Of a stretch of DNA of 8,008 nt, positions 1 through 8,008 are shown piece by piece. The notes below the pieces were generated by a model. The model was given only the letters and a program-made list of their open reading frames with translations. It made no database searches and had not been told where the DNA came from. Source of the stretch: Candidatus Pacearchaeota archaeon (GTDB taxonomy: Archaea; Nanoarchaeota; Nanoarchaeia; Pacearchaeales; GW2011-AR1); the NCBI GenBank assembly GCA_002690445.1, contig NZER01000331.1, positions 1 to 8,008 on the forward strand. Direction: 5' to 3'. Both the position numbers and the translations under genes were made by a program. Numbering within the stretch: the stretch's first letter is position 1; each line of letters starts with the position of its first letter.

Positions 1-99
1 AACAGGAAATTTAAGGAAAAGGACTACAGCTCTGCCATTTGCAGATACGATGACAAGACAGGTAGGATATATACAAACTTGTCAAACTATGCTAAGGAC
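1..99. repeat. Terminal overlap, left copy (circularity signal)
   Basis: Bases 1-99 equal bases 7910-8008 exactly. The same open frame passes through both copies, so this is most simply the overlap left when an assembler writes out a circular sequence, not a biological repeat. Circle length is 8008 - 99 = 7,909 bp. Confidence 0.95.
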
Positions 100-741
100 T
101 ACCGTTACCTTTTACGCTATAAGAACAGGCCGCTTGTACAAGTAGACTGCTCAGCTTGTCACCCTTTACTTTTGTTAAAACATTATGATCGAGTAGATAA
201 GCACTCTGCCGAAGACGTTGACAAGGAGGCTAAGAAATACCATGCTTTATTTGATCCACGTGGAGACTTTTACGTCAAAATAGGTACGTTAGCGGAGATA
301 GACAGAAAGGATAATGAAGCAGATGCCGAATATAGGAAAAGAATTAAGAACGACTATTTCTATAAATTTCTATATGATAGGCCCAAAGACCCTGAGAAAT
401 GCCGACTTACCAGAGCGTACCAAGATAACTACGGTATTCTACTAGAAACTATAAATGACCTAAAAACTCGCAGAATATTTGCTGACGATGATCCTGCACA
501 CTACAAAGTAACAGCTAAGCCCCATGGGCAATTTAGTTTTATTAACTTTAGGCTAGAAGGGGATATAATGATATTTGGAGTAGCCAAAGATATACTTGCT
601 TTAGCCCGTCCATTTTGGTTTACAACTATACATGACTGTGTTATATGCCAGCCAAAATTTGCACAAAAAGCCACGCAGATCATGGCGGCTAACTTTAAGA
701 GGGTGTTAGGGTTTCGAGCCTACTTTAAGACAACTCAATAG
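1..741 (+). CDS. Family A-like polymerase / replication protein, C-terminal catalytic part (codons 236-481)
   Basis: This is the second half of the gene starting at 7205. Base 1 is the first base of codon 236, and the frame ends at TAG 739-741. An internal TTG at 79 is not the true start. The family A palm motifs are visible in order: motif A, LVQVDCSACHP, with metal-binding D284; a candidate O-helix/motif B with R347, K351 and F355, the same spacing as R754/K758/F762 of E. coli Pol I, followed by Y360, one residue later than expected; then FRLEGDIM; and motif C, TTIHDCVI, with D447. The end (FKRVLGFRAYFK) also fits the family. The residue five after D284, where Pol I has the steric-gate Glu710, is His289. 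At 481 aa it is far shorter than Pol I and lacks exonuclease domains. The last 17 bases overlap the convergent serine recombinase gene. Inference: it replicates this element. A primase-polymerase role is possible but untested. Confidence 0.8.
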   Translation, partial: NRKFKEKDYSSAICRYDDKTGRIYTNLSNYAKDYRYLLRYKNRPLVQVDCSACHPLLLLKHYDRVDKHSAEDVDKEAKKYHALFDPRGDFYVKIGTLAEIDRKDNEADAEYRKRIKNDYFYKFLYDRPKDPEKCRLTRAYQDNYGILLETINDLKTRRIFADDDPAHYKVTAKPHGQFSFINFRLEGDIMIFGVAKDILALARPFWFTTIHDCVICQPKFAQKATQIMAANFKRVLGFRAYFKTTQ

Positions 742-2983
742 GCGTACCCAAGGTAGGACTATGTGGACGCTTTTGTAAATCAATGTACGGCTTTTCGAAT
801 ACCATGCTATTGTAAAAGTTATGACCTTCTTTTACTCTACGTACTCCAAATTTAGCTGAGTATGACATTTTAGAGGAATGGAGTTTATCATATGCCTCTA
901 CTGTCCCTATCACATGAGCGCCATTGTATCCCCACTCTATGCCCTCACACAAAGGAGACAGCCTATTTCTGCCGAGGTTGCTATCTTTTGTCTTGAATAC
1001 GAATACTCTCTTATTTACAAGAGACACTATAAAAAAGCGATTAAGCTTATTTGTTGTAGGTAATCTAGGGTAGTTATATATAGCACGCCTGAATCTATTC
1101 ATGACGTTTATATCTATGCGCTTTTGCTCAGTATCTAAGCTTTTATCCATCTTGGGTACGTGCTTAAATATTCTATGGAAGTATAGATAGGGGCAATATT
1201 CAAATTTAGTGGGCGTCATGTCTTCGAATTCTTTTAAGCTAATGGGTTTAAATTTATATCCCTTATCAGCATACTCCAGACCTATTTTATTTATTCTACG
1301 CATTAGGGTGCGGAACGCCTTGTCATTATAGCTAATGCCTAATGAATAAAGATATATCGCTTTGACGCTTTCCCTAAGCTTGATGTTGATTGAGGATATT
1401 ACCTTAGAGTTACCCAAATTAGATAAGTAGCTATCCTGTATAGTCTTTATATCATCCTCGCTACCTATCTCTGTCAGCGCCTCTTCTAATTCTTTATCTA
1501 ATGTATTCCTTTTAGTGGATAACGCCTTTATCTCAACCTGAAATTTAGTTATACGGCTGTGGCTGTCCTGTCTGCTCTCTGGAGACATATCTAGAGTGTC
1601 TAAGTCATCATTGCGTTGCTGCACTAGCTTCTGTTTATTGTCTATGTCTATATCTAAGGTAGCTATGCCATTACGAAGATCAGCTATAGCTAAATCTTCT
1701 GTATCAGACTCTACTTTCAAAGATGTTAAAATCATCGAATTGATGAACGCTACTTCTAAACAATCTTGCCTCCAGTATTGGTTAACACCGCCCTCTAGAC
1801 TTTGAATAAACTTATCGCTCTGGAATATAGAATACCGCGCATCTTTACCTCTTGTAATTAGTCTTATCTTACCTCTATCATTTATGTCAGCAGACATATT
1901 ATTATAGTATCCACAATACAATAGCTTCTCTAATATGGAATAGTTAAATTTAGCGCCACGTTTAGTCCCTTTTAATAGGCGTATATTCTGAGCCTTAGTC
2001 CATAGTGCATCGGATATTAACTCCTCATCTGTTATGTAAATCTTATGCTCCTCATAGCCTTCTGTGCCATCAGCTTTAATGGGCGTAGGCTTTCTCGAAT
2101 TCTCTAGTCTTTCAGCTTGGAACGTGTGGTATCCTATAATAGCTTTATTTCTTAATATCGATGACACTCTTGCACTAGACCAATATCCTCTACCTGTGAA
2201 TGTTGGGATACCATCAGAATTTAAGCTCTGAGAAATCAACATACACCCATACCCATTAACGTACTCTGTGAATATCCTACGTATTATTATAGCCTTCTCA
2301 GCAATTAGATGATATTTACCATCCTTTTGTATTAGCCAGCTAGGGCAGACTCCATTCAATACCTTACCTTCTTCTATGCTTGCAGTCCTTCTACGTATCC
2401 AAGCATTCTTAGCTGTATTTCTAAGATTCTGAGAGAAAGCATAGGCGGCTATCATCTCCCCCACTAAAATCCATATCTTGTGGGACTCTGAATCCAATAT
2501 CTTGGAGCTATACCGTTGGTTATTGTATACTGTAACTATAGTGATATCATACTCAAATAGACCTTGTAAAAGATTGAACTGCTGGATTACATTACCCCTA
2601 GACCCTCTGTCCCACTTATCGAATAGTAAATAGCTCCCGCGCCTGACCGTTCCATCTTTACAGTATTCTAAAAAGTCTCTAAGCTTTCCCTTAGCTAGAT
2701 TAATGCCTACAGACGCCGATACTGCTCTGTCCTCTAATCGTAACTGTGTGTCAAGCACAAACCCCTCTTTTTCATGATTATTTACCCATCTTTCGGCATT
2801 TTCCTCTTGCGTAATGAGGCTATCCCTAATGTCTTCTCTATCACTTGCTTTATTAGAGCTTGACGCAAGCTGAGATCGGGATGAGACGCGGCGATAGGAA
2901 TAGCACTTTATTTGTAGGGGCATATTTATTTTAAAATAGTTGTTGACTCCCGCGACCCTATCGGGTAGTTTGTCTTTTGTCAA
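725..2983 (-). CDS. Large serine recombinase (site-specific integrase)
   Basis: Cuts and rejoins DNA at att sites through a phosphoserine link. Residue numbers count from the TTG at 2983. The resolvase catalytic domain begins at YSYRRVSSRSQ (residues 28-38), with Ser34 the likely nucleophile and Arg32 beside it. It continues through EDRAVSAS (84-91) to KWDRGSR (123-129), carrying the conserved D125, R126 and R129. A recombinase domain follows (about 205-300, including YWSSARVSSILRNKAIIGY). The usual zinc ribbon is reduced to one LLYCGYY at 355-360, and a long coiled coil spans about 428-507. An extra C-terminal region of about 150 residues follows. At 752 aa it is long for the class. Start choice: TTG 2983 has a perfect AGGAGGG upstream at slightly long spacing (about 10-11 nt). 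ATG 2923 (732 aa) has no Shine-Dalgarno site but puts the catalytic Ser at residue 14, typical for the family. The 3' end overlaps the convergent polymerase gene by 17 bp. Confidence 0.92.
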   Translation of the reverse strand: MTKDKLPDRVAGVNNYFKINMPLQIKCYSYRRVSSRSQLASSSNKASDREDIRDSLITQEENAERWVNNHEKEGFVLDTQLRLEDRAVSASVGINLAKGKLRDFLEYCKDGTVRRGSYLLFDKWDRGSRGNVIQQFNLLQGLFEYDITIVTVYNNQRYSSKILDSESHKIWILVGEMIAAYAFSQNLRNTAKNAWIRRRTASIEEGKVLNGVCPSWLIQKDGKYHLIAEKAIIIRRIFTEYVNGYGCMLISQSLNSDGIPTFTGRGYWSSARVSSILRNKAIIGYHTFQAERLENSRKPTPIKADGTEGYEEHKIYITDEELISDALWTKAQNIRLLKGTKRGAKFNYSILEKLLYCGYYNNMSADINDRGKIRLITRGKDARYSIFQSDKFIQSLEGGVNQYWRQDCLEVAFINSMILTSLKVESDTEDLAIADLRNGIATLDIDIDNKQKLVQQRNDDLDTLDMSPESRQDSHSRITKFQVEIKALSTKRNTLDKELEEALTEIGSEDDIKTIQDSYLSNLGNSKVISSINIKLRESVKAIYLYSLGISYNDKAFRTLMRRINKIGLEYADKGYKFKPISLKEFEDMTPTKFEYCPYLYFHRIFKHVPKMDKSLDTEQKRIDINVMNRFRRAIYNYPRLPTTNKLNRFFIVSLVNKRVFVFKTKDSNLGRNRLSPLCEGIEWGYNGAHVIGTVEAYDKLHSSKMSYSAKFGVRRVKEGHNFYNSMVFEKPYIDLQKRPHSPTLGTPIELS

Positions 2984-3042: not shown

Positions 3043-3240
3043 ATGCAAACTATAACCAACATAACAGGCTACAGTAAAGAATACAACGCCTTGAGTAACG
3101 CTATAAATGCCCTCAAGTTCAATGTTAATCGGGAGTATCTGGCAAGGAGAGTCTTTCCTGCTTGGTCTAGGCTAGTTATTGACCACAATGTAAAGACTAT
3201 TAGGGTTTTGAACCAGTTAATTGAAAGGGAGAGACTATGA
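3043..3240 (+). CDS. Small protein coupled to the tyrosine recombinase
   Basis: A 65-aa protein of unknown function, predicted helical, with a basic middle (NREYLARRVFPAWSRL, about residues 29-44) and a charged C-terminus (LIERERL). Its TGA stop (3238-3240) overlaps the ATG of the tyrosine recombinase as ATGA, and the Shine-Dalgarno site for that gene lies inside its last codons. The two are therefore almost certainly co-transcribed and translationally coupled. Known context: small basic proteins next to tyrosine integrases are often excisionases or recombination directionality factors. That is a guess here, since I see no recognisable Xis winged-helix motif. The start is the first ATG after an AT-rich promoter-like stretch. 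Confidence 0.65.
   Translation: MQTITNITGYSKEYNALSNAINALKFNVNREYLARRVFPAWSRLVIDHNVKTIRVLNQLIERERL
3226..3231 (+). promoter_or_regulatory. Shine-Dalgarno site for the tyrosine recombinase
   Basis: AGGGAG lies 5 nt before ATG 3237, inside the last codons of the 65-aa gene. It fixes the integrase start and fits translation coupled to the upstream gene. Confidence 0.6.
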
Positions 3241-4181
3241 GTAAACTGATAGAGGTCGCTCCTAATTATAGCATAGCCCTTCCCAGCAATTCGGCTGGGT
3301 TGGGCCTGAAGGTCATTGATTATTTCATCAATCGGATAGACAACCCGCATACTAGACGAGCTAAGGTTAGAGACCTAAAGTGTTTATCTTTGTTTTTAGA
3401 AACACATCAAACTGACGTAACTAATTGTGGTATACAGCACTTAGGTCTTTATAGGGAATATCTCAAGGAGAATGGTAAGGCTATTGCTACTATCAAGAGG
3501 AGGATAAGCACCCTTAAAGATTGGTTTTCTTTTCTGCATAACGAGGGAATACGAGATAGAGACATAGCTAGTAGTTTAAAGTCTCCAAGGCGTAGTTATG
3601 TAACTGGTACTACTCCTGTCTTTTCGCGGGATGATTTGGCTACCTTATTGGATAGTTTCGACAGTTCCACATTGAAAGGTATTAGGGACAGGCTTATAGT
3701 ATGTCTGTTGTATTATACAGGTTGCCGAGTGGGGGCAATGGTAAAAATTCATATGCCCCATATAAAAAGATGCCAAGATTGCTTTGAGATAGAATTAGAC
3801 GAGAAGGGCGGCTCAGTCCATACAGCTAAAACTCACCCAGTATTAACAAACCAACTATCAGAGTATCTACAGTATGCCGCTTTGAAAGAAGGGGCGCTGA
3901 TACAGAGCGTGAGAAAAGGTAAGTCGGTGTTAACAGGCAGGGCCATGCTTGAAAGAAATGTATGGGACGTTATAAAAACATCCTGTGCTAATGCTGGTAT
4001 AGATACTATATATAGCCCACATAGCTGCCGCGCCACTAGTATAACAAATTTCCTTAATGGTGGAGGAGATTTGAGAAGAGCGCAGATTCATGCTAATCAT
4101 AAGTCAGTCCAAAGCACCGTCTTGTATCACCGCAATGCCAAGACAATTAGCGTGAAGGAGTTGGATATTATATCACTATGA
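3237..4181 (+). CDS. Tyrosine recombinase / phage-type integrase
   Basis: A 314-aa site-specific recombinase of the usual XerC/D and integrase length. Residues about 22-115 form the N-terminal SAM-like core-binding domain, with TIKRRISTLKDWFSFL at 85-100. The catalytic domain (about 125-314) has the whole active site: Arg164 in TGCRVGAM, Lys190 in DEKGG, His262-x-x-Arg265 in PHSCRATS, His288 in HANHKS, and the nucleophile Tyr297 in TVLYHRN. Nothing is missing, so it should be active. It lacks a long N-terminal arm-binding domain, so it looks more like a Xer-type or simple integrase than lambda Int. It could resolve multimers of the circle or integrate it into a host chromosome; the sequence does not decide between these. 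It is coupled to the 65-aa gene upstream, and the repeat-rich noncoding region lies directly downstream. Confidence 0.93.
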   Translation: MSKLIEVAPNYSIALPSNSAGLGLKVIDYFINRIDNPHTRRAKVRDLKCLSLFLETHQTDVTNCGIQHLGLYREYLKENGKAIATIKRRISTLKDWFSFLHNEGIRDRDIASSLKSPRRSYVTGTTPVFSRDDLATLLDSFDSSTLKGIRDRLIVCLLYYTGCRVGAMVKIHMPHIKRCQDCFEIELDEKGGSVHTAKTHPVLTNQLSEYLQYAALKEGALIQSVRKGKSVLTGRAMLERNVWDVIKTSCANAGIDTIYSPHSCRATSITNFLNGGGDLRRAQIHANHKSVQSTVLYHRNAKTISVKELDIISL

Positions 4182-4237
4182 TTAAGTAAAAATATCTTGT
4201 CGAAATGTCGTTTTTTGGTATAGTTTAGATTTGAAGG

Positions 4238-4318
4238 ATGCCAGAAATTGACCAAATAGAATTATATTACTATCACGTAGTGATAGCGCATACTACTGCA
4301 TACATTATAAAACAATAA
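4238..4318 (+). CDS. Possible 26-aa small ORF in the control region
   Basis: ATG 4238 to TAA 4316-4318 encodes a short peptide rich in Tyr, Ile and His, beginning MPEIDQIELYYYH. A GAAGG sits directly before the ATG, too close to act as a normal Shine-Dalgarno site. The frame contains the 4270-4286 palindrome, which suggests the DNA is conserved for the palindrome and not for a peptide. Could be chance. Confidence 0.15.
   Translation: MPEIDQIELYYYHVVIAHTTAYIIKQ
4248..4276 (+). promoter_or_regulatory. Possible rightward promoter overlapped by a palindrome
   Basis: TTGACC (4248-4253) and TATCAC (4271-4276) are 17 bp apart. The -10 hexamer lies inside the 4270-4286 palindrome, a classic arrangement for a repressed promoter. 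No sizeable plus-strand gene follows, so a transcript would be a structured noncoding or primer RNA crossing the 4327-4376 hairpin. The -10 match is partial. Confidence 0.25.
4270..4286. repeat. Palindrome CTATCAC-gta-GTGATAG (operator-like)
   Basis: Perfect 7-bp inverted arms around a 3-bp centre. Size and symmetry fit a dimeric repressor's operator or a recombinase core site. It covers the -10 of the possible 4248-4276 promoter. The 95-aa winged-helix-like protein (5000-5287) is one possible ligand, but that is speculation. Confidence 0.6.
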
Positions 4319-4326
4319 AACTATTG

Positions 4327-4376
4327 TATAGGCCCACTAACCCCTACCCCATTTATAGAAATGCTATGGGCCTATA
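4327..4376. repeat. Ten-base perfect inverted repeat with a nested hairpin
   Basis: TATAGGCCCA (4327-4336) pairs perfectly with TGGGCCTATA (4367-4376). Between them CATTT (4350-4354) pairs with AAATG (4359-4363) across an ATAG loop. This leaves a lopsided internal loop: 13 C-rich bases on the left (4337-4349) and only 3 on the right. It could be a structured RNA, a cruciform, or a nicking or single-strand initiation structure. No T-run follows it on either strand, so it is not an ordinary terminator. Confidence 0.65.
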
Positions 4377-4379
4377 AAC

Positions 4380-4394
4380 TACTATATCATAGTA
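4380..4394. repeat. Short inverted repeat TACTAT-atc-ATAGTA
   Basis: Perfect 6-bp arms with a 3-bp centre, just after the larger stem. Its layout (6-7 bp arms, 3-bp centre, TACTAT start) resembles the 4270-4286 palindrome, so the two may be related protein-binding sites flanking the 4327-4376 stem. Confidence 0.45.
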
Positions 4395-4410
4395 CGGGCC
4401 TCCTTCTCAG

Positions 4411-4483
4411 TCTCCCCAGAGTGTTTCATTAAAGGTTTGGTTGTGTCAGATACCTTCTATTATACTACGTAGGGTCTGGGAGA
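4411..4483. repeat. Imperfect inverted repeat TCTCCCCAGA / TCTGGGAGA
   Basis: The arms at 4411-4420 and 4475-4483 pair with one bulged C. They enclose 54 bp that include the palindrome CTACGTAG (4465-4472). These are GC-rich arms in an AT-rich region. Function unknown. Confidence 0.4.
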
Positions 4484-4486
4484 GCC

Positions 4487-4498
4487 TTATAATTATAA
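4487..4498. repeat. Twelve-base AT palindrome TTATAATTATAA
   Basis: A perfect 12-bp palindrome made only of A and T, at the edge of the most AT-rich part of the region. It could contribute to DNA unwinding at an origin. AT palindromes also occur by chance. Confidence 0.35.
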
Positions 4499-4545
4499 AT
4501 AACACACACAGCCAGCCTTTATAATATATACTATTAGCCCAAGTA

Positions 4546-4566
4546 TATTGTTTTTACTATTGTTTT
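4546..4566. repeat. Tandem TATTGTTTT repeats (iteron-like)
   Basis: TATTGTTTT occurs at 4546-4554 and 4558-4566, a 12-bp period close to one helical turn. The reverse complement, AAAACAATA, occurs at 4309-4317 on the other side of the inverted repeats. Few copies and low complexity make this weak evidence for iterons, but the phasing and bracketing are suggestive. Confidence 0.3.
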
Positions 4567-4694
4567 GATAAATTAAGATATATACCAAATGGGTATTTTT
4601 ATCGTTAATGGGGCATTATTCGCCGCTATATCGCTATTATTCCGCGCTTTAGTGTTTATTAACTATATGTTGGAGCCTTCACTAATTTATAGAT

Positions 4695-5003
4695 TTATTT
4701 AATGGTGGTCTTAGAAAACAGCCAACCAGTTGATGATAGGGCGTCCTCAACATTCATTTCCTTTATAGGTGAAGCTGTCCATTTACTACGTTTGTAATAG
4801 ACTACGGGATTGCCTTCGAAGAATTCTCTGGCCTCATCTATGAAGCTATCCAAATTGTCTAATCCTATCCTCTTTTTTATTATGTAGGTTTGTTCGGGTT
4901 GGGTTAGTTGATAACTAACGTACCCACCTACAACATCATCCCATAAGTCAGGAATTGACAAGTCCAATAGGGCATAGTATAACCTAGCATCAACAGACTT
5001 CAT
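4695..5003 (-). CDS. Unknown 102-aa acidic protein, last gene of the three-gene minus-strand operon
   Basis: I do not recognise this protein. It is small, soluble-looking and rich in Asp and Glu in its first two thirds, with several aromatic residues, and has no signal peptide, membrane segment or metal-binding cluster. The start is well fixed: ATG 5001-5003 overlaps the TGA of the 95-aa gene as ATGA, and GGGAGG lies 8 nt upstream. That shows translation coupled to the gene before it. The pair may act together, for instance as partners in a complex, but nothing in the sequence gives a function. Confidence 0.7.
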   Translation of the reverse strand: MKSVDARLYYALLDLSIPDLWDDVVGGYVSYQLTQPEQTYIIKKRIGLDNLDSFIDEAREFFEGNPVVYYKRSKWTASPIKEMNVEDALSSTGWLFSKTTIK

Positions 5004-5287
5004 TTAATGTGCCTCCCGTACTTAGTCCATGCCATACGTGGTATGTTATTATTTGTTAGCAAATCAGATCGTCTGAAGATATTAGTTTTAGCTATCACCT
5101 TTTGTGAGGCATAGCTAGATAGTATCCTAGCCATGTCTGTCTTATCCTTTGGTATTGCCTTACCATTATACAGTAGTAATGCCCAAAGCAAGTCTGATGT
5201 AAAGACTTTGTAATTATTTGCTAAAAATAGCACCTCTTCCCTATACTTCGTATGTTGTGTTGATATCATAAGATTTATTTCTGGCAT
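5000..5287 (-). CDS. Small protein with winged-helix-like pattern, possible DNA-binding regulator
   Basis: 95 aa, not recognised by family. The order of elements resembles a winged helix: helix YREEVLFLANNY (about 15-26), helix TSDLLWALLLY (30-40), helix TDMARILSSYASQKVIAKT (51-69), then a basic hairpin-like segment ending RMAWTKYGRH (84-93). The protein is basic, as expected for DNA binding. It could regulate the element's promoters or bind the palindromes in the 4182-4694 region; this is inference. The start overlaps the end of the 294-aa gene by 47 bp. An alternative start at Met7 (5269) still overlaps by 29 bp. No Shine-Dalgarno site is seen, so translation probably depends on ribosomes arriving from the upstream gene. 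Confidence 0.65.
   Translation of the reverse strand: MPEINLMISTQHTKYREEVLFLANNYKVFTSDLLWALLLYNGKAIPKDKTDMARILSSYASQKVIAKTNIFRRSDLLTNNNIPRMAWTKYGRHIK
5012..5017 (-). promoter_or_regulatory. Shine-Dalgarno site for the 102-aa gene
   Basis: The minus strand reads GGGAGG 8 nt before ATG 5003, inside the end of the 95-aa gene. Strong match and ideal spacing. Confidence 0.65.
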
Positions 5288-6125
5288 ATTTTAGCTCATC
5301 ATCTAATGCGTGGGGATCATCCTTTGTAATATACCTATACAATAGTGGACTTATATACGCGATTAAGCGGTCATCCTTTTTGTCTCCTACTATCATAAAT
5401 CCGCATCTGAGCCACATCGCTAACAGAGCTATCCCGTTATTCTTGCTAAGATTGCCCTTGTTATCCTTCATCTTAACTTTTCTTGCTCGCCAGTTCTTAT
5501 CTCTTCCCTTCCTGACTGGCATCTGGTTTATACGACTGGCCCACCCTTCCAAGTAGTCATAACCATCAATAAAAAGTATCTTGGAGAACCTTCTTAGAGA
5601 TTTATTAACTCTATAGTAATTTCCTTGGTCTTCTGGCAGCGCCCATATGAATTTAACATGAGCCAAATTGCCATTGATATGTCCCTTTTCCTCATTTGTT
5701 AAATCTCTTTTGCCTGTAGAAAAGTCCATAGAGTATTTAGTCTCTAAGTCTCTAAATCTCCATACCCTACCTTCATCAGACTTCCAGTTAAAGTCACCAT
5801 CATGGTACGTAGTCTTTCCTATGGCAGACTCAACCTGTATCGGCATATCAAAGTGTTCAATAATGTCTAACCACTTCTTACAGTCAGCGTGGTAGGACTT
5901 CATATTATAGACCTCCATACCATCGAAATCATAGGATAGGTTAGCGTTTTCCAATGACTCTTCATGTCTTGCTTCTTTTCTTTTCCTCTGGGCTACATCT
6001 ATACCAAAAAGCATAGCTGTATTCTTATATTCCTTATGTATCCTATGTTCATTTGGAGATAGCCCCAATGCAAAATAGTCTGCATATTGCGTAGCCTGTC
6101 TAATACTATGTGTTAAGCCACGCAT
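5241..6125 (-). CDS. Unknown 294-aa basic protein, first gene of the minus-strand operon
   Basis: I do not recognise this protein. It has no signal peptide or clear membrane helix; the most hydrophobic stretch, GIALLAMWLRCGFMIVG at about 231-247, is short and interrupted by Arg. A very basic segment lies at 205-224 (RKGRDKNWRARKVKMK), and Trp, Tyr and Asp are frequent through 80-200. The basic segment suggests nucleic-acid contact. I found no HUH relaxase pattern, no Walker A, no polymerase motif and no capsid feature. ATG 6125 is the first ATG after a candidate promoter (6134-6162) whose RNA would start about 2 nt before it, so the message looks almost leaderless. It is followed with overlap by the 95-aa and 102-aa genes. 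Confidence 0.75.
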   Translation of the reverse strand: MRGLTHSIRQATQYADYFALGLSPNEHRIHKEYKNTAMLFGIDVAQRKRKEARHEESLENANLSYDFDGMEVYNMKSYHADCKKWLDIIEHFDMPIQVESAIGKTTYHDGDFNWKSDEGRVWRFRDLETKYSMDFSTGKRDLTNEEKGHINGNLAHVKFIWALPEDQGNYYRVNKSLRRFSKILFIDGYDYLEGWASRINQMPVRKGRDKNWRARKVKMKDNKGNLSKNNGIALLAMWLRCGFMIVGDKKDDRLIAYISPLLYRYITKDDPHALDDELKYARNKSYDINTTYEV

Positions 6126-6180: not shown

Positions 6181-6211
6181 AAAAAAATAGCCCCCAATTT
6201 AATGGGAGCTA
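6181..6211 (-). terminator. Rho-independent terminator of the 6234-7103 gene
   Basis: On the minus strand a stem with outer TAGC/GCTA and inner CCCA/TGGG pairing (one mismatch between them, small AT loop) is formed by 6211-6188, followed at once by seven Ts (6187-6181). It begins 22 nt after the stop codon of the 6234-7103 gene. This separates that gene from the three-gene operon and supports a bacterial transcription system. Confidence 0.8.
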
Positions 6212-6233
6212 CCTATAAGTTATGTATGTTATA

Positions 6234-7103
6234 TTATGCCAGCTTATACTCAAACTTAGCACCACGCAACTTGTTACCACTAGTATCTGTCTTGCCTTCG
6301 TTGATGTTCTTTCTAACTAGCTGGCCTTTAGCGTGCATAACATTATTCATCTGGTTAAAGAGGTAGTTACCACCGTCTTGTGTTCTTTGTCTTGGACTTC
6401 TGGACTTCTTAGTCGCTCCACCTTTAACCTTATACTCTCCTCTATAGTTTGGAATACTTGCGAGTAGGTCATCATCAGAAGTAGCCTCTAACGCAGCTTT
6501 CTTTACTGCGTTTAGGTCAGCATAACCCGATAATGATTTTAACCCTGTTTTCCATCCTGTAAGCAGGTGTTTTTCCATTAAACCAGCCTCATCCCAGTCT
6601 GTTAGGTTGGGCTGTCTGCCGCCTTTCTTTTCGCGTGGGTCTGCTGGTGTATTGCTACGCCATAAATGAAGACAATCTTTGTAGAAACCTGCCACAGATT
6701 CATTTAAAGCTACTTCATCTCTGTCGATAGCTTTAATGTCATAGAACAACTCCACACGCTTAGTGTCTATTGGCTCTGTTGCTTCGCTCAAGTTGCCCCC
6801 ATTTGTCTCTGCCTTATACTCAGCCTCCTTGATTTTGAATTCAGCAAGTGCGGCTTTATAGGCAGCTACTGGTGCAGCATATCTGTCGAATGTCTTAGTT
6901 TCTTCCCGAAGAACAGCAATTGCTGTCTCGGCCTCTTTGATAGTTAAGTTATTCTTTGCCATAACTGAGACCAGTATATCAGAATAGTAGGGTAATGTCA
7001 AGCCCCAAATGTATTTTATTATGGCATCTGATAATGTGTCATAGGCTATTGCAATACCAGCCGTAAATGACTGAGCGTAAGTCAGTTCCATACCTTTTTG
7101 CAT
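6234..7103 (-). CDS. Unknown 289-aa Ala-rich protein with coiled coil and basic tail
   Basis: I do not recognise this protein. From ATG 7103: a mildly hydrophobic N-terminal stretch (about 8-50, with no clean membrane helix); a likely coiled coil at about 52-100 rich in Ala, Glu and Lys (EAETAIAV, AALAEFKIKEAEYKAE); a middle domain at about 115-215; and a strongly basic, Gly- and Asn-rich tail from about 218 (GGATKKSRSPRQR) to the end. It has its own strong terminator, so it is expressed separately from the neighbouring operon. Its Ala and Gly content is higher than in neighbouring proteins, as in abundant structural or DNA-coating proteins. That could mean a nucleoid-like, partition or virion protein, but none is shown. 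A TTG at 7127 would add 8 residues, but it lies 2 bp from the likely -10 box, so ATG 7103 is preferred. Confidence 0.75.
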   Translation of the reverse strand: MQKGMELTYAQSFTAGIAIAYDTLSDAIIKYIWGLTLPYYSDILVSVMAKNNLTIKEAETAIAVLREETKTFDRYAAPVAAYKAALAEFKIKEAEYKAETNGGNLSEATEPIDTKRVELFYDIKAIDRDEVALNESVAGFYKDCLHLWRSNTPADPREKKGGRQPNLTDWDEAGLMEKHLLTGWKTGLKSLSGYADLNAVKKAALEATSDDDLLASIPNYRGEYKVKGGATKKSRSPRQRTQDGGNYLFNQMNNVMHAKGQLVRKNINEGKTDTSGNKLRGAKFEYKLA

Positions 7104-7204
7104 TTTGGCTTGACCAGAATTGCTCAATATATTAGTGTTTTCGAAGATTCCCGACTACTGCTGGAGGCATAAGACAGTAGGCTATAGCTAAGTATTATAT
7201 TAAT
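7104..7204. promoter_or_regulatory. Divergent promoter region between the polymerase gene and the 6234-7103 gene
   Basis: Rightward: AAGACA (7171-7176) and TATTAT (7193-7198), 16 bp apart, with RNA expected to begin at about 7205, the A of the polymerase ATG. Leftward: a -10 TAATAT on the minus strand at 7129-7134, with a poor -35 near 7152-7157. Between them lie the inverted repeat CTACTG (7155-7160) / CAGTAG (7175-7180) and the palindrome GCTATAGC (7181-7188). The arrangement would let one regulator control replication and the divergent gene together. Confidence 0.45.
7155..7180. repeat. Inverted repeat CTACTG...CAGTAG in the divergent promoter
   Basis: Perfect 6-bp arms with a 14-bp gap. 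The right arm overlaps the -35 hexamer of the polymerase promoter, as expected for a repressor site. Six-base arms are short enough to arise by chance. Confidence 0.35.
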
Positions 7205-8008
7205 ATGAATAAAGTAAACATAGTTAAGAAATGTATACAGCTTTATTCTATTAAGTATTATTTACATTCAGAGTCTTGGAGTGAAGAAAGGTTTGAATAT
7301 AGTCTAGATAGATTTAAACTAATAGATATCCTAAAGGTAAAGAAAGAAGAGAACACTCTTAGTGAAGAGACTTTAATTTATTATAATAATTTCATTGACC
7401 AAGAGGTTAATAGAATTAATATCGGAATGTTGAAGATATATTTATTTTTAACAATTCTATTGTGGCGGGGTCTTACTGAGAAAAGTCAACCTTGGGGGGA
7501 TTATAAGGCCATAAGCAACGTCTATTTACATAAATTCTTCCGTTATGAAGACATTACAACAATAGTTAATCTATTAGTAGCCGCCGAGATACTTGATGAC
7601 CCTAGACCATATAGTAAGGGGAGATGGTCTAAATCTTACCGTTTCCATCCTAATTTAAAATTAATGAAAACTATTCGTCTGGAATATGACTGTAATTGTC
7701 TAGGGGTGGACAAGCTCACTCTCTGGGCCGAAGAGAGTATTAAGACTATAGAAGCCGATACAGACCTATTCGACAACTACTATAGTAACTTTAAGAAAGT
7801 AGAGATAACTCCAGACTCAATGGATATAGTAAAGAACGGCGTATTTCCTAAAGGTGATAACTCTAGACTATGTACCATTAGTGCAACAGAGGCTTTAAAC
7901 AGCTTTGGTAACAGGAAATTTAAGGAAAAGGACTACAGCTCTGCCATTTGCAGATACGATGACAAGACAGGTAGGATATATACAAACTTGTCAAACTATG
8001 CTAAGGAC
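7205..8008 (+). CDS. Family A-like polymerase / replication protein, N-terminal part (codons 1-268; gene continues at base 1)
   Basis: Seen: an open frame starts at ATG 7205 and runs off the window end. Because bases 7910-8008 repeat bases 1-99, the frame continues without a break into 1-741, giving 481 codons. Residues 1-235 are coded before the repeat. There is no 3'-5' exonuclease-like region. Residues about 95-150 (an ISNVYLHKFF helix, then a helix ending in AAEILDD, then a basic SKGRWSKSYRF hairpin) look like a winged-helix DNA-binding fold of the kind found in plasmid initiators. Residues 256-265 (GRIYTNLSNY) lead into the polymerase core. Inferred role: recognition of the element's origin combined with DNA synthesis in the cytoplasm. 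There is no Shine-Dalgarno site; a TATTAT -10 box ends 6 bp before the ATG, suggesting a leaderless or nearly leaderless message. The gene is divergent from the 6234-7103 gene. The polymerase assignment is fairly firm; the winged helix is inferred from pattern only. Confidence 0.8.
   Translation, partial: MNKVNIVKKCIQLYSIKYYLHSESWSEERFEYSLDRFKLIDILKVKKEENTLSEETLIYYNNFIDQEVNRINIGMLKIYLFLTILLWRGLTEKSQPWGDYKAISNVYLHKFFRYEDITTIVNLLVAAEILDDPRPYSKGRWSKSYRFHPNLKLMKTIRLEYDCNCLGVDKLTLWAEESIKTIEADTDLFDNYYSNFKKVEITPDSMDIVKNGVFPKGDNSRLCTISATEALNSFGNRKFKEKDYSSAICRYDDKTGRIYTNLSNYAKD
7910..8008. repeat. Terminal overlap, right copy (circularity signal)
   Basis: Second copy of the 99-base terminal identity. 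It lies inside the polymerase gene (codons 236-268) and should be removed when the sequence is circularised. Confidence 0.95.

Follow-up and report, generated by a model that had tools for sequence, protein, structure and literature searches.

A TV-Pol-like family A polymerase joined to a winged-helix-like region on a small circular contig from a Pacearchaeota archaeon

We analysed an 8,008-bp stretch of DNA, contig NZER01000331.1 of a Candidatus Pacearchaeota archaeon (hereafter the window), which carries a polymerase gene of 481 codons together with two recombinase genes. Judged from its sequence, the encoded protein is TV-Pol-like rather than a proven TV-Pol member; the name TV-Pol stands for minimal polymerases of family A found in mobile elements and in viruses (PMC2579912; Iyer, Abhiman and Aravind 2008). 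On balance we favour reading it as a family A enzyme encoded by a small circular mobile element, which it most likely replicates. For a widespread family in which no Pfam or NCBIfam model matched the members scanned, this gives a confident structure model, an active site and a setting in mobile elements.

A polymerase gene across the junction of a circular contig

Bases 1-99 of the window are identical to bases 7910-8008, an exact terminal overlap of the kind that a 7,909-bp circular contig would show. The polymerase open reading frame (ORF) at 7205-8008 on the forward strand has no stop codon at the window end; it resumes at base 1 and stops at 739-741, and joining 7205-7909 to 1-741 across the junction gives 481 codons and a stop. 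Read without the junction, the coordinates 7205-8008 cover codons 1-268 only, the final 33 of which duplicate the window start. Two homologues matched the joined protein, P0001 with 77% identity over 99% of the query and P0002 with 74% over 100%. Because both are continuous on their own contigs and collinear with the joined protein, the junction is supported, and the small circle that an earlier note on this DNA had proposed was borne out. As a separate observation, the C-terminal residues of P0001 are unlike those of all other family members, as if from a frameshift near the gene end. The features of the gene and the repeat are as follows.

7205..7909, forward strand: polymerase gene, codons 1-235 (ORF and junction reading; homologues collinear over 99-100%)
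1..741, forward strand: polymerase gene, codons 236-481 and stop, with every catalytic motif (ORF, junction and motif alignment)
7421..7678, forward strand: winged-helix-like region, residues 73-158, inferred from how helices and strands follow one another in the P0002 model
7751..7909, forward strand: first part of the polymerase domain, which begins near residue 183 (structural alignment)
145..147, forward strand: motif A aspartate D284 (Asp in 75/75 rows)
334..348, forward strand: fingers R347-x3-K351 (R347 in 71/75 rows, Lys in the other 4; K351 in 75/75)
631..636, forward strand: motif C H446-D447 (H446 in 71/74 rows, D447 in 74/74)
7910..8008, forward strand: 99-bp terminal repeat of the circular contig, an exact copy of bases 1-99

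Predicted fold and active site

We used a confident structure model of P0002 as a stand-in for the window protein, to which it is 74% identical. A first AlphaFold2 model, built from a 7-row alignment (mean predicted local distance difference test score 56.6), was not used for interpretation. Residues ~183-480 aligned to the palm, fingers and thumb of solved family A polymerases, in line with the family A polymerase read by the earlier note, and all 50 structural matches listed were DNA polymerases. A sequence-profile search of PDB returned no polymerase match.

The family A motifs that the earlier note had read from the sequence, D284, R-x3-K-x3-F and HD, are present, F355 lying four residues past K351 in the window sequence. 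Eleven full-length sequences, the window protein included, share 94 invariant positions, among them D284, R347, K351, H446 and D447; those invariant in an alignment of 15 rows were R257, R270, D284, P290, R347, K351, T444, H446 and D447. Across the wider 75-row alignment (which excludes P0013 and 6 of 51 long bacterial relatives) R257, held in a beta-hairpin before the palm (strands 249-252 and 257-260 in the model), was kept in every row, and E421 in 74/74; counts for E421 and motif C use the 74 rows bearing a letter there. Such conservation of active-site residues would be expected of a working enzyme.

Two of these positions raise the alternative of a single-subunit RNA polymerase, which would transcribe the element or make RNA primers. 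Motif C is HDS in T7 RNA polymerase and HDE in Pol I; it reads HDC in the window protein and HD-Ser in most relatives (Ser in 58/75 rows). Five residues past the motif A aspartate, Pol I has Glu and T7 RNA polymerase has Gly, while the family has His (12/12 window-clade rows) or Gln (the other 63), and so not the Glu of Pol I. Both His and Gln are bulky compared with the Gly of the RNA polymerase, and the structural matches listed were DNA polymerases throughout, so that we think this alternative very improbable. We take the same position to correspond to Glu710, a residue involved in sugar selection by E. coli Pol I, and with His or Gln there the enzyme may use deoxyribonucleotides or ribonucleotides.

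No exonuclease domain was apparent, in line with the earlier note, since only ~183-480 aligns to family A polymerases and the preceding part is taken up by other elements; no separate search was made with a model of this N-terminal part. Pfam scans gave no nuclease family match.

The possible winged helix placed there by the earlier note has a counterpart in the P0002 model, in which helix 73-91, strand 101-104, helix 105-108, helix 114-126 and strands 142-147 and 151-158 follow one another in a winged-helix-like order. All relatives aligned have this conserved region joined to their polymerase. It was named by no match in Pfam or in a sequence-profile search of PDB, and no Rep_3-type domain was found in the N-terminal regions of 20 relatives. 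From the model, residues 73-158 are winged-helix-like and form a probable DNA-binding domain.

A broad and mostly unannotated family

A direct search of 5.8 billion proteins by shared words identified 7 and then 13 homologues. Some of their longest contigs (7,437, 7,885 and 8,184 bp) are near the window in size; others reach 11,108 and 18,803 bp. Close homologues were not found among phages (megablast), plasmids (blastn) or IMG/VR, nor by tblastn of P0002 at E≤0.1, and a first scan of GTDB genomes gave no close relative at the settings used. No Pfam or NCBIfam model matched the polymerase family members scanned. A phage protein family of unknown function, phrog_4756, gave matches at E≤1 (best 9.4e-8) to 9 of the 13 homologues; P0004 and P0005 each have two matching stretches, of which the one near motif A is the better, and in other homologues a stretch near motif C matches. 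Another family, phrog_7378 (best 6.1e-5, over 25 residues of P0002), was taken as a chance match.

More distant relatives were found with looser limits. A tblastn search with P0004 at E≤10 returned 11 phage and 4 plasmid records, of which five were inspected (H1, H2, H4, H12 and H13). Records of a giant phage contig (E 2e-3) and of Aeromonas phage 4L372D (E 2e-2) encode proteins with the same motif order, and relatives also lie on two Hymenobacter plasmids. We set aside H12, an ORF without the motifs, and H13, where the annotated gene lies on the opposite strand. A profile of the 15-row alignment matched 1,105 proteins at E≤1e-3 among 7,996 candidates scored, the giant-phage branch leading among the 120 matches listed. 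In two giant-phage loci (L001, 1279-3725; L016, 3902-6351) we observed that the TV-Pol-like gene is immediately followed by a second ORF resembling a Pol I-like family A polymerase, its motifs read by eye.

The DNA pattern HT...DI-x-NSQP matched 75 stretches in GTDB genomes, and 60 of these loci encode a relative at E<1e-5, mostly in Bacteroidota; the other 15 were dropped before the counts given below. Because the loci were picked by DI-x-NSQP at fixed spacing, this bacterial sample leans to one branch, and it is informative on relatives with that pattern only. A profile of the window clade alone matched many bacterial loci (best 9.9e-16 in that small set). In the reverse direction, a profile of 51 bacterial relatives matched residues 58-479 of the window protein at 98.6 bits, against 4.0 for the best of 300 shuffles and 3.9 for the best other window protein. 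A rapidly built tree of 79 proteins, with P0003 and P0012 excluded, united the 11 window-clade rows with SH-aLRT 100. The stem of this group measures 2.74 changes per column, and the group joins the others only weakly, at a place where long branches come together. By sequence the window protein belongs to a broad family found in bacteria, for the most part Bacteroidota, as well as on contigs of giant phages and on two Hymenobacter plasmids, and it is distantly related to little-studied polymerases that bacterial mobile elements and giant phages encode.

Genomic context of relatives

Neighbours were compared at the 60 bacterial loci, in pieces of up to 8 kb, by single-linkage clustering at E 1e-4 with one representative scanned per cluster. 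The commonest cluster, found at 37 of 60 loci, is represented by a tyrosine integrase (PF00589, PF13102). Others are headed by an AAA_24 ATPase (13 loci), DUF3871 (10), an Eco57I-type restriction-modification protein (7) and HTH_17 (7). None of the seven other window proteins fell in a listed neighbour cluster. The Bacteroidota loci L019-L093 include many in which an integrase-linked polymerase has AAA_24, DUF3871, HTH_17 or restriction-modification neighbours, and these integrase-linked loci are apparently an unnamed kind of integrative element.

Family A enzymes are common in repair, which together with the 7/60 loci in the restriction-modification cluster would suit a polymerase for repair or defence that travels as cargo and is dispensable for copying the circle. 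We regard this as highly unlikely: the commonest neighbour cluster is of integrase type, and 10 proteins searched with PADLOC at E≤0.1 gave no match.

Both Hymenobacter plasmids also have a recombinase-family gene. On the plasmid of Hymenobacter qilianensis we additionally observed, near the relative, a CAP12/Pycsar-type TIR protein (L007, 8499-9272) that is annotated only as a nucleotide-binding protein.

Comparison with known systems

The hallmarks of TV-Pols are a hairpin Arg, two palm Asp, a fingers Asp with RxxxK, and no linked nuclease; they often lie near resolvase or integrase genes, have been reported in Bacteroidetes, Planctomycetes and other bacteria, and are predicted to have both primase and polymerase activity (PMC2579912). 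The window protein is alike in being a minimal family A domain without nucleases that has the hairpin Arg, the two palm Asp and RxxxK, in the recombinases on its circle and the integrase-type cluster of its relatives, and in having relatives in the same bacterial groups. It differs in its winged-helix-like N-terminal part, that of a TV-Pol subset being all-helical (PMC2579912), and no D5-like helicase was recognised in the window by Pfam. The candidates for the fingers Asp, D324 and D361, are Asp in just 12/75 rows each, and Ma-LMM01, a named TV-Pol carrier, gave no significant match with three profiles. For these two reasons we call the protein TV-Pol-like only. In hhalign, gp030 ranked first of 66 Ma-LMM01 ORFs, but with a probability of 2.45%; it lies beside transposase genes and has YDVVKCH and QHDG stretches, and its resemblance to the window family is suggestive only.

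CCPol of SCCmec is counted among TV-Pols. According to PMC7581432 and PMC10061031, it extends primers and, with its partner MP, which it needs for priming, starts strands de novo; mutating either catalytic Asp abolishes both activities. Apart from CCPol, no TV-Pol with biochemical characterisation was known to the authors of PMC7581432. The window protein resembles these CCPol-MP and PolA-SSB primases of SCC elements in its exonuclease-free family A domain with two catalytic Asp, and its element likewise carries a large serine recombinase. In contrast to theirs, no helicase family was recognised in the window (Pfam, nine ORFs or pieces, E≤1, the scope also of the negatives on replication families below), and the N-terminal part differs as far as theirs is described. 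PMC11348598 applies the name TV-Pol to PolA of some smaller viruses.

Pipolins (PMC7385651 and PMC9710591), some integrative and others borne on plasmids, are likewise mobile elements with a DNA polymerase gene of their own. Theirs is of family B (piPolB), unlike the family A enzyme here, so the window element may work like a pipolin but is not a member. The phrog_4756 matches of the window family are partial (~30-50 residues), and that phage family has no name. None of the open-licence papers listed in our searches describes, by its title or the start of its abstract, a polymerase of this kind on a small plasmid.

Proposed role in replication

The protein most likely takes part in copying the circle, whether it acts as a primase-polymerase for DNA or extends strands as a polymerase. 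We propose that the winged helix would bring the polymerase to the element DNA, perhaps by recognising an origin, where the polymerase would start or extend a DNA strand in the manner of CCPol; the two recombinases would insert, excise or resolve the circle.

Several results, the lack of a significant Ma-LMM01 match among them, weigh against this reading. The fold was computed for P0002 and not for the window protein itself, and Foldseek whole-chain TM-scores were low (0.29-0.38 by query length, 50 rows) with large root-mean-square deviations; the family A claim is based on the domain alignment and not on these scores. Neither a helicase nor a single-stranded DNA-binding protein was recognised on the circle, and the literature found reports no activity for any protein of the window branch. 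Both Hymenobacter plasmids with a relative (62 and 35 kb) carry an annotated replication initiation protein, and the one that was scanned does have Rep_3 domains (Rep3_N/Rep3_C). This pairing of initiator and polymerase is the main result against self-initiation.

The same plasmids favour a reading that we consider clearly less likely than replication by the polymerase: an accessory primase or gap filler, with another factor (an unassigned protein or one of the host) initiating and the host replicase doing most of the synthesis. The four window proteins without assigned function would leave room for such a factor, and CCPol, according to PMC7581432, elongates worse than Klenow and makes primers that other polymerases can extend. 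However, no Rep family was found in the window, and the winged-helix-like fusion throughout the aligned relatives suits DNA targeting. Rather doubtful, in our view, is a single protein acting as initiator, primase and polymerase, in which the winged helix finds the origin and the family A site starts the strand with no separate Rep or primase; if true, it would parallel the pipolins, with a family A enzyme and on a very small replicon.

The earlier note had taken the polymerase for the only replication candidate. This holds insofar as no initiator, relaxase or other recognised replication family was found in the window, nor any match to the Rep_3 winged helices PF01051 and PF21205; four other window proteins have no assigned function. 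The note's suggestion of a distinct replication strategy was not supported in the form given, as the protein belongs to a broad family with most hallmarks of the TV-Pols published in 2008 (PMC2579912). A few-gene circle whose enzyme is fused to its own probable DNA-binding domain would be a compact system in which to ask whether family A enzymes can initiate replication unaided.

Other genes and sequences on the circle

The remainder of the circle is occupied by the following features.

725..2983, reverse strand: large serine recombinase (PF07508, E 7.7e-16; phrog_95, 2.4e-34)
3237..4181, forward strand: tyrosine recombinase, XerC/XerD-like (PF00589, 1.6e-18; best NCBIfam match XerD, 113.7 bits)
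4182..4694, no strand: AT-rich intergenic stretch, speculatively an origin or attachment region (composition)
4695..6125, reverse strand: three overlapping or adjacent ORFs without assigned function (102, 95 and 294 amino acids)
6234..7127, reverse strand: ORF of 297 amino acids from TTG, without assigned function; an internal ATG start is possible

The 8-kb circle thus bears both a large serine and a tyrosine recombinase. The serine recombinase gene is convergent with the polymerase gene, and their 3' ends overlap by 17 bp. The XerD score of the tyrosine recombinase is below the cut-off of 329.6 bits; the protein resembles those of many plasmids (477 plasmid records with a match). The recombinase matches listed in plasmids are at ~22-33% identity and in varied bacteria. 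No clear iterons were found in the AT-rich stretch, and the sole Rfam match (4530-4589) is far under the gathering score. The proteins of 102, 95, 294 and 297 amino acids and a 65-residue ORF had no informative Pfam, NCBIfam or PHROG match, and the two longer ones no relatives in IMG/VR.

Promoter-like sites (30, against 25.2 in shuffles) and terminator-like sites (5, against 4.6) were near chance in number. The best promoter-like site (6973-7001, reverse strand, 11/12 with TG) lies just upstream of the internal ATG of the 297-residue ORF, and a terminator-like hairpin (6185-6214, reverse strand) lies at the other end of that ORF.
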